Below are positions 6,295-13,506 of a DNA stretch of 64,000 bases, piece after piece; positions within the stretch are counted from its first letter, which is position 1; the number at the start of each line of letters is the position of its first letter. Location of the stretch: the NCBI RefSeq assembly GCF_000975115.1, contig NZ_BBRE01000001.1, forward strand, positions 1,083,322 through 1,147,321, read 5' to 3'. The DNA is from Demequina oxidasica. Its GTDB lineage: Bacteria > Actinomycetota > Actinomycetes > Actinomycetales > Demequinaceae. The notes below the pieces were generated by a model that did not search any database, was not told where the DNA came from, and was given only the letters and a program-made list of their open reading frames with translations. A program made the position numbers and the translations under genes.

Positions 6295-6585
6295 CTAGTG
6301 TGCGTCCGGACGAAGCAGCTTGGTGCGAAGAATGGACTCGTTGAGACCGAGCTGACGCTCGAGCTCCTTGGCGGTAGCCGACTCGGAGGTGAAGTTCACC
6401 ACCGCGTAGATACCGTCTGCCTTCTTCTTGATCGGGTAAGCCAAACGACGACGGCCCCAGATGTCGAGCTTGTCGACCGTGCCCTTGTCGTTGGTGATAA
6501 CCGTCAGGTACTTCTCGAGCGACGGCTGAACCGTGCGCTCTTCTACCTCGGGGTCAAGGATGACCATCATTTCGTACTGGCGCAT
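6295..6585 (-). CDS. rpsF: 30S ribosomal protein bS6
   Basis: Small-subunit protein that pairs with bS18. The 96-residue product begins [17 protein letters not shown] and keeps the [18 protein letters not shown] core of bS6. The start at 6585 has a perfect AGGAGG eight bases upstream; the frame is open for another 68 codons but without conserved sequence. First gene of the operon with ssb, rpsR and rplI. Its leader contains two hairpins, one followed by a T run, which suggests attenuation or S6:S18 feedback. Confidence 0.97.
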
Positions 6586-6605
6586 TAATACCCACCTCCT
6601 CTGGA

Positions 6606-6702
6606 CTAAAAACGGCCACGGACGATCCGTGGCAGGAGGGTTACGCAGTAGCGGAGAATCCCGCCGATGGCGGCAGGACCTTTTCCACCGCGCACAAGAA
6701 TA
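6606..6702 (-). promoter_or_regulatory. rpsF operon leader with terminator-like hairpin
   Basis: Reading toward rpsF there is a -10-like TATTCT (6702-6697), a small hairpin CCGCC-ATC-GGCGG (6673-6661), then an 8-base perfect stem (6615-6622 with 6626-6633) followed by CGTTTTT, and then the rpsF ribosome site. The upstream neighbour is divergent, so this hairpin cannot terminate any other minus-strand gene. It is a candidate attenuator or S6:S18 autoregulatory leader; which of the two is inference. Confidence 0.5.
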
Positions 6703-6806
6703 CCTTGCCGGCCCGACAATCGGAAGTGCGAGGTCCAGTCTGATGCCCGCGGTGCTCCCGTAGGATGCACCTGACGTGAGTTTCACCACCCGAAGGGCAG
6801 CACCGC

Positions 6807-8027
6807 ATGAAGCTTGGCAACGACGATTTTGTTCCCGTCATCCTTGGTACGGGAGTCGGCGCCTACAACATCGCGCGCTCACTGCACGAGGCTTACCAGG
6901 TGCGTAGCCTGGCGCTAGGACGTGCGGCACTTCACGAGACTGCGAAGTCATCGATCATCTCAGTCCGCGCCTCCCGCGACTTCGACTCACCAGAGGCAAT
7001 CGTCGCGACGCTCCTCGCGGTGGCCGACGAGCACCCTGACCGTCAATTGCTGCTTATCCCCACCATTGAGTACTACACGAACGTCGTGATCGACCACCGT
7101 GACGTGCTTGAGGAGCGATACATCGTCCCCCTCGTCAACCGGGAACTCGCGGACAAGCTCATCGACAAGACCGCGTTCTATCGAACCTGCGAGGAGCACG
7201 GCATCCCCCACCCGCGCACCACGGTGGTGACACCTTCGCAGCAGGGTGACCCCGGCATCGGCGAGGACTTGCCGTTCGAGTATCCCGTGATAGCCAAGCC
7301 TTCCAATACCGATATCTATCAGCGACTTTCCTTTGAGGGCAAGCAGAAGATTTATCGCGTCGACACCCCGGCGGAACTGCGCGAGGTGATCGAGCGCATC
7401 TTTGGCGGCGGCTACGAGGACGACATGATCGTCCAAGAGTTCATCGCCGGCGACGAGACCGTGATGCGCGTCGCCAATACCTACTCCGACCACCAGGGCA
7501 AGATGCGTCTCGCCTCAGTGGGTCAGATCGTGATGGCTGACCAGCACCCGGATCGGGTGGGTAACTACGACGCCATCCTGACCATTGATGACCCCCAGTT
7601 GACGGAGTCGATGCGCAGCCTGCTTGACGCCGTGGGGTACACGGGCACCGCGAACTTCGACGTCATGTGGGACCACCGGGACAACACCTCGAAGGTGCTC
7701 GAGCTCAACCTGCGCCAGGGCGCGGCGTGCTATTACACGATGGCGGCCGGCGGCAACATCGCCCGTGCGCTCGTCGAGGATCGCGTCTATGGCCGTGATC
7801 CCGGTGACCAGGTCACCGCCATCGAGGCGCTATGGATCAACCTGCCGCGCCTGGTCTCGCGCCTATTCATTCCGCGATCGCTCCGCAAACGCGTGCGAGC
7901 CGCCGCGCATCGTCGCACCGCGCACACGCTCTGGTACCGCCCGGACATGGGCGCGGGTCGCATCGTGACGGTCCTGCGCATCGACGTGCGTCACACGCTA
8001 TCGACCTTTAAGTACGCGCGTTCCTGA
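6807..8027 (+). CDS. ATP-grasp ligase, D-aspartate-ligase-like (peptidoglycan cross-bridge)
   Basis: A 406-residue ATP-grasp enzyme. The opening [23 protein letters not shown] and the later [23 protein letters not shown] closely recall Enterococcus D-aspartate ligase (Asl), which attaches D-Asp to the stem-peptide side chain. The ATP-grasp lysine region [11 protein letters not shown], the acidic [10 protein letters not shown] and the metal-binding end [14 protein letters not shown] are visible. The last 90 residues are basic. Neighbours are a FemX-type aminoacyltransferase and a class A PBP, which supports a role in the interpeptide bridge, adding a D-acidic residue (Asp or Glu). The family similarity is from memory of the sequence pattern; the amino acid used is inference. 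It overlaps the convergent DegT gene by 20 bases. Confidence 0.75.
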
Positions 8028-9195
8028 CAGCCTCGATGACCTCGCGAGTGGAGCGCGCGATGCGTTCCGCCTCGGCCTCCGTGACGGCGGTGGGAAGATT
8101 CACGATGCGCTCAATCACGTCTCGAGTGACGGAGAGGTTGGGGTCGTTAGCGTCGTAGAAGTACGTATCGGCATCGGCTACCCCGGGAAACAGCGCTGGC
8201 CGATACCAAGTACCCACGTAGATGCCCCTCTCTCGCAGGCCCCCCACGACGGCACCGGTGTCCGCGGCATCGGGCGTCAGTAGCGGCATCCGGATGAGCG
8301 GCTGGCCCACCACATCCGCGCCCCACGGCATGAGGTCCGACAGCGCCTTCGCGTAGACGGCGACTGCCGCGACACGGGTCGCCTCCAATGCGGGGAGCCC
8401 GGGCAAATGCTCGGACATGTGGCCCACCACCCACGGCGAAACACCCACGTCAGAGTGGGCGAGCCTGCCCTCCTGCTCTGACAGCGCGACTGCCGGCTCG
8501 AACAACTTCACCGAGGACAGGGCGCGCCTCGCGGCACTGCTCATTCCACCAGGAAGCCTGCGCAGGACGGCCATCTGCAGTCTGTACGTGCGAGCAGCGA
8601 ATCCCAGCCGAGCACCCGGGGGCCGCATGCCCTCAAGCCTCCTGGTGATGTCGTCGCGCAACGTCTTGTCCGCCATCTTGGGATTCACCCAAATGGCCCC
8701 GCCGAACTTGGTCGGCAATGACTTCTCCGCGCCAAACGAGTGGACCGAGACATCGGCCAGGGGCGAGCCGGCGCCATCCCGCACCATTCGCGCAAGGCCA
8801 TGCGCGGAGTCCTCCACGACTAGCGCGGAATTAGCACGCGCGGCGTCCACGAGACGCGCCGACCGTTCCGCGTCGACTATTCCGAACGTGTGCTGAATGA
8901 CTAACGCGCCCCACGACTCAGCGGGGAGGAGGCGGTCGGGGTCCAGCGCCAGCGATTGGTCGCTGATATCTGCGTAGACGGGCCGCAGACCCGCCACCAT
9001 GATGGGATCCACGGCGGTCGCGCAGGTGAGCGACTGAGTCATGACTCCGCGCGCCTCGCCGGCAGCATTCAGCGCCGCAAATACCTGCTGCATCCCATAC
9101 CGGGCCTTGAACACCAGGTGCCAATCCTCCGCGGCCGTCGAGGTAAGTTCCGCCAGAGAAGTCCGCACCGTATCCACCGCTCCATTATCCCCCAC
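8008..9195 (-). CDS. DegT/DnrJ/EryC1-family PLP enzyme
   Basis: A 395-residue fold-type I PLP protein. The region SVHSFGAEKSLPTKFGGAIW matches the DegT/AHBA-synthase pattern in which a lysine of the SF..EK segment holds PLP. VVEDSAHGLA corresponds to the Asp that binds the pyridine ring. Most members are sugar aminotransferases, but no sugar-nucleotide genes are nearby. Its place between a D-Asp-ligase-like gene and a FemX-like gene hints at cell-wall precursor chemistry. The start is GTG at 9195, 45 bases from the divergent FemX-like gene. Its last 20 bases overlap the ATP-grasp gene tail to tail. Substrate unknown. Confidence 0.75.
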   Translation of the reverse strand: MGDNGAVDTVRTSLAELTSTAAEDWHLVFKARYGMQQVFAALNAAGEARGVMTQSLTCATAVDPIMVAGLRPVYADISDQSLALDPDRLLPAESWGALVIQHTFGIVDAERSARLVDAARANSALVVEDSAHGLARMVRDGAGSPLADVSVHSFGAEKSLPTKFGGAIWVNPKMADKTLRDDITRRLEGMRPPGARLGFAARTYRLQMAVLRRLPGGMSSAARRALSSVKLFEPAVALSEQEGRLAHSDVGVSPWVVGHMSEHLPGLPALEATRVAAVAVYAKALSDLMPWGADVVGQPLIRMPLLTPDAADTGAVVGGLRERGIYVGTWYRPALFPGVADADTYFYDANDPNLSVTRDVIERIVNLPTAVTEAEAERIARSTREVIEAVRNART

Positions 9196-9240
9196 CGTGT
9201 CTGATTACTTCCCTGCGCACGCGCGGTCTAGGCTCGGCAC

Positions 9241-10287
9241 ATGAGTTCTCCGACTGAATCCGTGCGTATCGAGGCTCTCGCCGATGCCGATTACCTCGCC
9301 TTTGCCGATGCCGCCGCACACACCATCGCGATCGAACAGACACCCCCGTGGGATGCGTACGATGCCGTGGTTGAGGGCCGCACGCCCTGGCGCAGGGTCG
9401 GGGCTTTCGCGGGCGACGCCTCCGAGCCCTTCGCGCTCATCGCGCTTACCGAATACGCGGGGCGTGGCTTTGACTACCTGTGGGCCAAGCACGGACCCAC
9501 GTGGATGGGGGTGCACGACGAAGCCACCGAGCAGGCCCTGCGCGACGCCTTAGTCGCCTACGTCAAGGTCGAGGCGCCGCACATCGTGTTCCTCCGCATG
9601 CACGCGCGCTACCCCGCACCGGACCTCCACGAACTACTGCAAACCATCACCTACGACCGCACCGTAGTGATCGACCTCACGCTCGACGACGATGCCTACC
9701 TCGCGAGCCTGTCCAAGAAATCGCGTGCACGGATGCGGCGCGCGCTGCGGATCGAGGGCACCACTGCGAGGTGGGAGAAGGACCTCACGCGCGAGGCCTT
9801 CGATGAGCTCTACGCCATCTATGAGGAGACTGCCGGCCGCGACGAGTTTGGGATCTACCCGCCGGAGGTCTATTGGGGGATGCTCGAAGCGTTAGGAAGC
9901 AACGCGCGCATGTACGTCGCGCGACGGGCCGACGAGGGACCGAACGGTGAGCCGGCTGGCCGGGCGGTCGCGTGGGTGCTCTCCACCATCTACGGCGCCG
10001 GCGCCGTCTATTACTACGCAGCGGGCAATGCAGAAGCTCGCGACATCGACGCGGCGGCCGTTCTTGTGTGGGCCATGCGGACGTCGCTTCGGGAGGCTGG
10101 CGCCGCGAAGCTCGACCTCATGGGCGTAGAATCCGAGCGCGCGCCGTCGCTTGCCAGCGTGGGCGACTTCAAGCGCAAATGGGGTCCTGAGAGCGACATC
10201 GACGGTGCCTGGGATGTACTGGTAAAGCCCACCAAGTACCGACTTCTCAAGGCCGCCCTCAAGGCGAAGCGCACCCTCCGCGGCTAA
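9241..10287 (+). CDS. FemX/FemAB-type lipid II aminoacyltransferase
   Basis: Members transfer amino acids from aminoacyl-tRNA to the stem peptide of lipid II to start the interpeptide bridge. The 348-residue protein has two GNAT-like halves. The basic KKSRARMRRALR (159-170) is typical of the first, and the final DLMGVES...FKRKWGPE is the FemAB/FemX ending. The -10-like TAGGCT lies six bases before the ATG and no ribosome site is seen, so the transcript may be leaderless. It ends four bases inside the convergent PBP gene. With the D-Asp-ligase-like neighbour it suggests a mixed bridge of an L-residue plus a D-acidic residue. Which amino acid is unknown. Confidence 0.82.
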   Translation: MSSPTESVRIEALADADYLAFADAAAHTIAIEQTPPWDAYDAVVEGRTPWRRVGAFAGDASEPFALIALTEYAGRGFDYLWAKHGPTWMGVHDEATEQALRDALVAYVKVEAPHIVFLRMHARYPAPDLHELLQTITYDRTVVIDLTLDDDAYLASLSKKSRARMRRALRIEGTTARWEKDLTREAFDELYAIYEETAGRDEFGIYPPEVYWGMLEALGSNARMYVARRADEGPNGEPAGRAVAWVLSTIYGAGAVYYYAAGNAEARDIDAAAVLVWAMRTSLREAGAAKLDLMGVESERAPSLASVGDFKRKWGPESDIDGAWDVLVKPTKYRLLKAALKAKRTLRG

Positions 10288-12650
10288 GGAACCGCCGGCA
10301 CCGCGACACGATCTGCCGCGGGGGCAGGCGTTGCCGAGGGTTGCGGCACCGGTGCCTGCGTGGGGAGGGGATCCGGCGTAGGCGACGGCTGCGGTTCCGG
10401 TGCCTGCGTGGGCTGGGGATCCGGAGTGAACGATGGCTGCGGTGCTGGTGCCTGCGTGGGCTCCGGAATCGCGGAAGGAGTCACCGAGGGCGTCGGCGAC
10501 GGCTTTGGCTTTGCGATCTTGCGATCTGTGCCCACGTTGGCGCGCGCAGGGAAGTCTACGACTGGCATGTCCTCGAGGATGGGGTCCATCATCGCCGTCC
10601 ACACCCGAACCGGGACCGAGCCACCCGTGATCTGGTTGAACCCGGCGAACGGCGTGATCGTCTCGGCAGAGCCGTCCTCGCCCACCTGATACATCGCGAC
10701 GGCGCCCACCATGTTGGGAGCGAAGCCCACGAACCATGCCGACTTGTTGTCGGTGGACGTACCCGTCTTGCCCGCCAGCGGGCGACCAATGTCCTTGGCG
10801 AAGGTGCCCGAACCGTAGTTGACGACCTGTTGCATCGCGTAGGCGGTGTCGGCCATCACATCCGCGGCGAACACGTCCTCGGACTCGACCTCGTGCTTGA
10901 AGAACTCGGTGCCGTCGCTCTCAAGTACCGAGCTCACCATGAAGGGCTCTGTGCTGACACCCGCATTTGCGATGGTCGCGTATGCCGATGCCATGTCGAT
11001 CGTGTGGGGTGAAGCATTTCCCAGGACGTTGTTCAGACTCGCGTCCAAGCCATTGGTGTCCTCGGGAATGCCGGCACGGATGGCGGTCTCCATGACGGCC
11101 TGCGAGCCGACCTCCTCGGAGAGCTGAATGTATGCCGTGTTGATGGAGTCCTGGGTCGCCTTGATGAGGTCGACCTTGCCGAAGCTGTGGTTCTCAAAGT
11201 TTTGGACCGGCTCCTCGAAGCCCGGGAAGGACATCGGACTATTCGCGATGTACTCGGTCCCAAGACCAATGCCACGCTCGAGTCCGCTGATCAGCGCGAA
11301 GGGTTTGAAGGTCGAGCCCGCCTGCGCGATGTCCTGAGTGACAGCGTTGCGCTGTATCTCCAGGTAGTCGTCGCCGCCGTACATTGACGTCACCGCCCCG
11401 GTTGCGGGATCCATCGTGACTGCCGCGACCCGCATCTTGGGGTCAGCGCCCTCTGGCATTTCCCGTACCGCTGCGACGGCATCGGCCTGGTGCTTGGGGT
11501 CTATCGTCGTGGTGATCTTGAAACCACGCGTCTCGATCTCCTCGCGGGTCACGCCGGTGTCTGCGATCGTCTCGTCGATGGCGGCCTGCAACAGGTAACC
11601 CTTGGTGCCGGCGAACACGTCATCCTGCTTGTACTCAATCGTGTCAGGGAACGTCTGTGCATCACGCTCACTCTGAGTGATGAAGCCGGTCTCGACCATG
11701 CCATCGAGCACGTAATTCCACTTCTGCTCCGCTTTGTCCGGGTCGAGGCGCGGGTCCCACGCACTCGGTGCGGGCACGATGCCAGCGAGCATTGCAGACT
11801 CTGACAAGGTCAGGTCCGCGGCGTGCTTGCCAAAGTACTCGTTCGCGGCAGCTTCAATCCCGTAGGCACCGCGGCCAAAGTAGATGGTGTTGATGTAATT
11901 TCCGAGCACCTCGGACTTGTCCTGCTGCGAGTCGATCTTCATTGCCATCAGGGCTTCCTTGATCTTGCCCGGAATGTCCGTGGTGGTCTCACCGACGTAG
12001 TAACGCTCTACGTACTGCTGCGTGATGGTCGACCCACCCTGCGTCTTGCCCTCGACCACGGTCTTGAAGAGCGCGCGCCCCATGCCCAACACGTCTACGC
12101 CTGGGTTGGTATAGAAACTGCGGTCCTCTGCGGCGACGAATACGTTGCCGACGTAGTCAGGGAGGGTGTCGATGTCGACGATCTCGCGGTTTGCCTCGCC
12201 CAGGCGACCCATCTCGGAACCGTCCGCGTAGTAAATGATCGAAGACTGCTGCAGTGCAAAGTCATTGGGCTCGGGAACCTCGAGCGTCGAGTACACGACA
12301 ACCAGGCCAATCACCGCGACCGTGGCGGTCACCAGACCACCGATCAACGCCCACAGGCCCACACCTCGCAGGATCCGCTTCCAGCGCGGCATGTCCGCGC
12401 GGCGCTGCTTGCGCGCGCTGCCCTTGCCTCCACCAGCACCACCCTTGCCCGAACCCTTGCCAGCTCCGCCGGTCTTGGTCGCGGGCGCAGCCGCCCTCGC
12501 GCTGCCCGATGCAGCGGCCGGCTTGGCACTTGCGGGACGGGTCGACTTGCGTACGGGAGTATCCGCCCTGGGGCGGGCCGAGGTGGGCTGCGTCCCAGTG
12601 ACGGGCTTAAACGCGGAGGTGCGCTTGGGGGTGGGCTTGGGTTCAGTCAC
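10284..12650 (-). CDS. Bifunctional penicillin-binding protein, class A (PonA type)
   Basis: Polymerises glycan strands and cross-links peptides outside the membrane. After a basic, Ala/Pro-rich cytoplasmic region comes one membrane helix. The glycosyltransferase 51 domain follows with EDRSFYTNPGVD, QGGSTITQQYVE and the NYINTIYFGRGAYGIEAA motif. The transpeptidase has the active-site STFK in QAGSTFKPFA and GKTGTSTDNKSAW. The tail is Pro/Thr-rich with a 16-residue repeat. I chose GTG at 12650, which opens VTEPKPTPKR and has GGGGAA upstream; 17 more codons are open. In Mycobacterium ponA1 also lies near ino1 and rpsF, so this position is conserved. Confidence 0.93.
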   Translation of the reverse strand: MTEPKPTPKRTSAFKPVTGTQPTSARPRADTPVRKSTRPASAKPAAASGSARAAAPATKTGGAGKGSGKGGAGGGKGSARKQRRADMPRWKRILRGVGLWALIGGLVTATVAVIGLVVVYSTLEVPEPNDFALQQSSIIYYADGSEMGRLGEANREIVDIDTLPDYVGNVFVAAEDRSFYTNPGVDVLGMGRALFKTVVEGKTQGGSTITQQYVERYYVGETTTDIPGKIKEALMAMKIDSQQDKSEVLGNYINTIYFGRGAYGIEAAANEYFGKHAADLTLSESAMLAGIVPAPSAWDPRLDPDKAEQKWNYVLDGMVETGFITQSERDAQTFPDTIEYKQDDVFAGTKGYLLQAAIDETIADTGVTREEIETRGFKITTTIDPKHQADAVAAVREMPEGADPKMRVAAVTMDPATGAVTSMYGGDDYLEIQRNAVTQDIAQAGSTFKPFALISGLERGIGLGTEYIANSPMSFPGFEEPVQNFENHSFGKVDLIKATQDSINTAYIQLSEEVGSQAVMETAIRAGIPEDTNGLDASLNNVLGNASPHTIDMASAYATIANAGVSTEPFMVSSVLESDGTEFFKHEVESEDVFAADVMADTAYAMQQVVNYGSGTFAKDIGRPLAGKTGTSTDNKSAWFVGFAPNMVGAVAMYQVGEDGSAETITPFAGFNQITGGSVPVRVWTAMMDPILEDMPVVDFPARANVGTDRKIAKPKPSPTPSVTPSAIPEPTQAPAPQPSFTPDPQPTQAPEPQPSPTPDPLPTQAPVPQPSATPAPAADRVAVPAVP
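10317..10460 (-). repeat. Three 48-base tandem repeats in the PBP tail
   Basis: The coding sequence repeats a 16-residue unit beginning PTQAP.PQPS.TP three times without a break at the C-terminus of the PBP. DNA identity between copies is high at GGTGCCTGCGTGGG, which recurs every 48 bases. It lies outside the catalytic domains, probably as a flexible extracellular spacer. Confidence 0.75.
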
Positions 12651-12915
12651 GTGAATTGTTCCCCGGAAGTTAGGAGGTGGATGTGGCGGCGCCACCTGCA
12701 TTGCGTGGAGATTGAAGCGGCGGCGGTGGCTGCGGCGCCACCCTCTTCAACGAACGGGACTCCCGATAAGTGCCAGCGAACTCGTCGCAGCGGCCCGTCT
12801 CGCAACCCCGCAACACACGCTACTCGATGTATCGCGCCGATACAACGGTTTGCTATGATGATGACCGCGCACCGCATTCCGCGGCAAAGCGACCCAACGC
12901 GGAGAGGAGGGAACA

Positions 12916-13506
12916 ATGGCCAAGACCGACGTGCTCACGCTTGCAATCTTGGGCATGCTCAGCGAGCAGCCTCTCCACGGCTACCAACTGCGCAAGCAAC
13001 TGGGATCCGAGCTCGGTGCTTTCCGCGCCTTGAGCTACGGTTCGCTGTATCCTGCCCTCAAGCGCATGGTCGGCAGCGGCCTCATCGCCGCTGACGCAAA
13101 CGAGGCAGAGGACGCCCACGCGGCATCCTCGCGCCGCTCACGCATCGCCTACCGCCTCACCGATGCGGGCAAGGCGCGGCTGGCAGACGAACTCGCTTCC
13201 GCCGGCGCCTCGTCGTGGGACGACGACGCCTTCGACGTGCGGTTCTCAATGTTCGACAAGACTGACTCAGCGACGCGTCTACGCATCCTCGAGGGGCGTC
13301 GCTCCCGGCTCGCGGAGAGGCTTGAAGAAGTCTCGGAATCCATGCAACAGCGCCGCGAGCGCAACGATGCCTACACCACGGAACTGCAGCGCCACGGCCT
13401 CGAGAGGGTCGAACGCGAGGTTCAGTGGCTCGACCAACTCATCGAAACCGAACGATCCGCCCCCGGCGGAAACACTAAAGCCGCCACCGGCGGGGAAAAC
13501 AACTAA
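12916..13506 (+). CDS. PadR-family transcriptional regulator
   Basis: A 196-residue repressor-type protein. Residues 1-80 form the PadR winged helix, with [21 protein letters not shown] and [12 protein letters not shown]. The rest is a longer helical domain (PadR C-terminal/Vir-like) that usually dimerises. The ATG follows GGAGAGGAGGGAACA. It is 10 bases upstream of ino1 on the same strand, the same pairing as Rv0047c and Rv0046c of M. tuberculosis, so regulation of its own operon is likely. Effector unknown. Confidence 0.92.

Follow-up and report, generated by a model that had tools for sequence, protein, structure and literature searches.

A probable interpeptide-bridge locus of Demequina oxidasica pairs an Asl-type ATP-grasp ligase and a FemX-type transferase with a DegT-family PLP enzyme

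Introduction

The classification of Actinobacteria has drawn on A4 cross-bridges for decades. To our knowledge, tests of mixed L/D bridges and of the genes that place D-Asp or D-Glu are confined to lactic acid bacteria and enterococci.

For D-Asp bridges, racD and aslA lie in one operon, and AsnH amidates the D-Asp (PMC4155827). The wall of the family Demequinaceae is of the A4α or A4β type (PMC6113628). A preliminary description of the locus studied here had proposed an A4-type wall for its host, which fits the A4β peptidoglycan with ornithine reported at the genus level for Demequina (PMC4400432); the bridge sequence of D. oxidasica itself was not found in the open literature searched.

Here, we analyze the rpsF-ino1 interval of D. 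oxidasica within a window of 64,000 nucleotides, the whole stretch of DNA that was analyzed. The cluster very probably builds a short peptide bridge that cross-links the cell wall. It joins two known kinds of bridge enzyme to a third enzyme that recurs beside them in unrelated bacteria, making an old cell-wall question testable.

Results

The interval and its borders comprise the following genes.

6295..6789, minus strand: rpsF, which bounds the modular locus on the left
6807..8027, plus strand: ATP-grasp D-amino-acid ligase of the Asl kind, Demequina clade I (homology, predicted fold, tree)
8008..9195, minus strand: DegT/DnrJ/EryC1-family PLP enzyme (Pfam; Lys-158 invariant in 10 homologues)
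9241..10287, plus strand: predicted FemABX aminoacyl-tRNA-dependent peptidyltransferase (Pfam FemAB)
10284..12650, minus strand: class A (bifunctional) PBP (Pfam; likely GTG start at 12650, open reading frame to 12701)
12916..13506, plus strand: PadR-family regulator, right border, followed by ino1

The four central open reading frames were recovered as the preliminary description had placed them, with family assignments by profile and with both tail-to-tail overlaps: 20 bases between the ligase end (8027) and the low end of degT (8008), and 4 bases between the femX end (10287) and the low end of the PBP gene (10284). The ligase and degT genes are convergent, as are femX and the PBP gene, and degT and femX diverge across a 45-base gap. 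Because both overlaps are convergent, the four genes do not form one operon. The order rpsF-ligase-degT-femX-PBP-PadR-ino1 is kept in Demequina aurantiaca (84-99% identity) and Demequina iriomotensis (49-90% identity), indicating that the four frames are real conserved genes rather than chance open reading frames.

A Pfam search with the ligase returned nothing at 0.001, and its NCBIfam matches were weak hits to carbamoyl-phosphate-synthase-like ATP-grasp proteins. Structure prediction, one of the checks proposed earlier, gave a confident AlphaFold model (pLDDT 87.3) with an ATP-grasp fold, the best PDB match of which was 2pn1 (Z 25.7, rmsd 2.8 over 289 residues); a profile built from relatives of the ligase also matches VanA-type D-Ala ligases. 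The protein is homologous over its full length, at about 30-35% identity, to ligases of lactobacilli with D-Asp bridges, and its named relatives come from Lapidilactobacillus, lactobacilli, Ornithinimicrobium, Collinsella, and Macrococcus. The relative in Lactobacillus curvatus is paired with an amino-acid racemase gene and that in Lactobacillus crispatus with asnB, an arrangement that matches the racD-aslA operon and the amidation by AsnH (PMC4155827); another is present in Lactobacillus fermentum. These data support the suggested kinship with Asl.

The ligase family was found in 148 of 297 genomes in a sample of the order, and a search of the D. oxidasica genome detected only one member. Clade-I ligases carry Ala or Gly after the NxRxG motif, where most relatives have Arg, so their side-chain preference could differ. 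We considered the Arg-to-Ala change as a substrate switch linked to DegT and rejected it, as most DegT-linked ligases of Coriobacteriaceae keep the Arg. One of the latter, in genome G619 (L118), reads NARPGANTYY and has Ala at this position like clade I. Elsewhere in the family, Lapidilactobacillus dextrinicus has two ligase-family genes that fall in separate clades of the tree (L004 9986-11245 and 11941-13155). Macrococcus carouselicus, whose wall is not known to be of the D-Asp type, has a full-length family member (L011 9986-11212).

FemX scores 37.9 bits against Pfam FemAB (cut-off 24), and its profile matches FemX structures (4ii9, 4e-8) and the lipid II glycyltransferase 6snr (9e-14), in agreement with its earlier description as a FemX-type transferase. 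It is the only FemAB protein detected in the D. oxidasica genome. The PBP has both a transglycosylase domain (Pfam Transgly, 191.9 bits) and a transpeptidase domain (Transpeptidase, 108.4 bits), each scoring above its Pfam cut-off. The GTG near 12650 is preceded by GGGGAA and, judged from the sequence, is a more likely start than the ATG at 12701. The PBP gene adjoins every bridge architecture seen at the Demequinaceae locus and looks like a general neighbor rather than a cassette-specific part.

The DegT protein matches Pfam DegT_DnrJ_EryC1 with 55.9 bits (cut-off 19.8). Its PLP-lysine region is conserved, with Lys-158 invariant in 10 homologues, as is a C-terminal motif; its structural model (pLDDT 60) was too poor for a structure search. 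Among 47 Demequinaceae genomes, DegT occurs in all nine that have a clade-I ligase and is missing from the remaining 38 (Fisher p 7e-10, with shared ancestry ignored); this and all other co-occurrence counts given here treat genomes as independent and leave shared ancestry aside. Its presence in only 1 of 297 sampled Actinomycetes genomes marks a narrow subfamily. It reappears in 14 of 67 Coriobacteriaceae, near a ligase and a FemAB gene and, in the loci checked, downstream of murJ. A FemAB gene is present in each of the 23 genomes with DegT (9 Demequinaceae and 14/14 Coriobacteriaceae), and in the tree DegT is associated with at least three separate ligase clades (clade I, the G343 type, and G654/G657).

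This linkage of DegT with the ligase and FemX, which is the new part here, argues for a shared pathway and does not reveal the reaction. The ligase and FemX might make the bridge while DegT, a mere neighbor at the locus, serves the synthesis of a wall glycan or glycolipid as a sugar-nucleotide aminotransferase: its closest solved relatives are sugar or inosose aminotransferases, and its NCBIfam matches, all far below cut-off, are sugar aminotransferases as well. We regard this as unlikely, since we identified neither a glycosyltransferase gene nor any other sugar gene next to degT, and its pairing with the ligase and FemX is tight in two actinobacterial classes and across several ligase clades. 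The literature searched held no paper connecting such a PLP enzyme with peptidoglycan bridges.

The contents of the interval between rpsF/ssb and the PBP gene vary among the 47 Demequinaceae genomes searched and the loci fetched. The interval may hold a clade-I ligase with DegT and FemX, a clade-II ligase with FemX, FemX by itself, the ligase then lying at another site (after gnd in G016), or two tandem ligases. A relative of the D. oxidasica FemX is absent from all seven two-ligase genomes (7/7). In G037 and G636, a different FemAB gene lies beside the ligase, so another type of FemX may be encoded elsewhere in the two-ligase genomes. In the tree, one ligase of each tandem pair in G022 and G029 falls among FemX-linked ligases, and the second ligase thus appears to stand where FemX would. 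The tandem ligases of G029 (L085) and G022 (L086) carry different NxR motifs, NPRIGR and NPRLSR. Walls of the related genus Actinotalea contain L-Orn-D-Ser-D-Glu or L-Orn-D-Ser-D-Asp (PMC8878594), which suggests that one of the tandem ligases may be a D-Ser ligase.

To weigh D-Asp against D-Glu, we compared the distribution of racemases. A ligase is present in 66 of 67 Coriobacteriaceae; of the 44 genomes that have a non-MurI racemase of the Asp/Glu family, 42 carry it no more than 1.5 kb from the ligase. D. oxidasica has a RacD-like Asp/Glu racemase after gnd (G000:C7 381196-381843; L092 5197-5844), outside the bridge locus, and D. aurantiaca has one at gnd too. Racemase and ligase are linked in G033 and G044, and the order gnd-ligase-racemase in G044 together with gnd-ligase in G016 points to gnd as a second site for bridge genes. 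A racemase gene of G033 (L081 10366-11088), just upstream of FemX and a clade-I ligase, matches the cysteate racemase model with 202 bits (cut-off 190). We took a further racemase, found across the genus (G000 C8:1339350), to have no relation to the bridge and left it out of account.

The RacD-like racemase at gnd in D. oxidasica and D. aurantiaca favors D-Asp, and the lack of a second racemase in most FemX-bearing Coriobacteriaceae and in other clade-I species favors D-Glu. That the ligase uses D-Glu made by MurI is quite possible, at somewhat under an even chance. A second Asp/Glu racemase is absent from 17 of 18 Coriobacteriaceae genomes with FemX, most clade-I Demequina do without a RacD-like racemase, and Ornithinimicrobium walls contain Orn, Ala, Gly, and Glu (PMC9973731). 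However, the gnd racemase of D. oxidasica is 61% identical to the ligase-linked one of G044 and 39% to that of L. curvatus, and the clade-I ligase groups on the D-Asp-ligase side of the tree with support of 92/83, which is not strong. We also asked whether DegT replaces an Asp racemase, as 13 of 14 DegT-bearing Coriobacteriaceae lack that racemase. This candidate was rejected: all four FemX genomes without DegT lack the racemase as well, and D. oxidasica, D. aurantiaca, and G033 carry both, so the absence goes with FemX and not with DegT.

Discussion

We conclude that the rpsF-PBP interval is in all likelihood the interpeptide-bridge locus of D. oxidasica, with FemX, the ligase, and DegT acting in one pathway. 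The cross-bridge role put forward in the preliminary description is supported by the A4β wall of the genus, the kinship of the ligase with those of D-Asp-bridge lactobacilli, and the single FemX. It is very improbable that the trio instead serves to decorate a surface glycan with amino acids or to produce a small peptide metabolite. Non-ribosomal peptide clusters do also bring together ATP-grasp, GNAT-fold Fem, and PLP enzymes (PMC2922099), but here the trio lies near a class A PBP gene in Demequina and near murJ in Coriobacteriaceae, where the ligase is near-universal. Such enzymes are, moreover, required for the A4 wall of the genus, and only one ligase and one FemAB protein were detected in D. 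oxidasica.

From the genes, families, fold, co-occurrence, and locus swapping observed above, we propose a bridge pathway whose substrates, order of addition, and catalytic steps are all predicted from knowledge of the families. FemX would take L-Ser, L-Ala, or Gly from aminoacyl-tRNA and attach this single residue to the side-chain amine of the diamino acid at position 3 of the peptidoglycan precursor. The ligase would then use ATP to activate a carboxylate of D-Asp or D-Glu and join this D-amino acid to the FemX-placed residue, and a PBP would cross-link the free amine of the D-residue to the D-Ala of a neighbor. DegT would belong to this pathway as well, and our working guess is that it makes or modifies the residue that the ligase uses. 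On the earlier suggestion that the PLP enzyme may supply a substrate, what the comparison shows is strong genomic linkage. The earlier proposal of a mixed bridge, with an L-residue placed by the Fem enzyme and D-Asp or D-Glu by the ligase, fits one FemX and one ligase, with D-Asp and D-Glu both candidates for the D-residue and L-Ser, L-Ala, or Gly for the one placed by FemX.

More tentatively, and at close to an even chance, two further propositions may hold together: that the DegT-type PLP enzyme is a dedicated, unrecognized enzyme of peptidoglycan biosynthesis that produces or alters an amino acid of the bridge and combines in modular fashion with FemX and ATP-grasp ligases across two classes of Actinomycetota, and that in tandem-ligase Demequina an ATP-grasp ligase, for example a D-Ser ligase, replaces FemX. 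Swapping of FemX and ligases within a modular locus would make the wall type predictable from the genome and checkable by muropeptide analysis. The locus also draws attention to a PLP enzyme for which the literature searched gave no tie to peptidoglycan bridges.

Several known systems resemble parts of this locus. AslA and Aslfm of lactic acid bacteria and Enterococcus faecium, compared here via the lactobacillal ligases, are likewise ATP-grasp enzymes of about 400 amino acids, whereas the Demequina ligase is adjoined by FemX and DegT genes with the racemase outside the locus and, in clade I, has Ala or Gly for the Arg after NxRxG. PylC, the D-ornithine to lysine ligase, shares the fold (Z about 23, rmsd 3.6 over 297 residues) and joins a D-amino acid to a side-chain amine, chemistry comparable to the predicted ligase reaction, but it has only 11-12% identity to the Demequina ligase and serves another pathway. 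With the FemABX enzymes (FemX of Weissella, MurM, FemA/B), the Demequina FemX shares a Pfam FemAB score above cut-off and the match to FemX structures; it is divergent (best NCBIfam score 37 bits versus a cut-off of 260) and would share the bridge with an ATP-grasp ligase rather than build it alone. Finally, the Demequina DegT resembles the DegT/DnrJ/EryC1/StrS aminotransferases in its Pfam score above cut-off, PLP-lysine region, and C-terminal motif, and differs from them in sitting with cross-bridge genes rather than in an identified sugar pathway.
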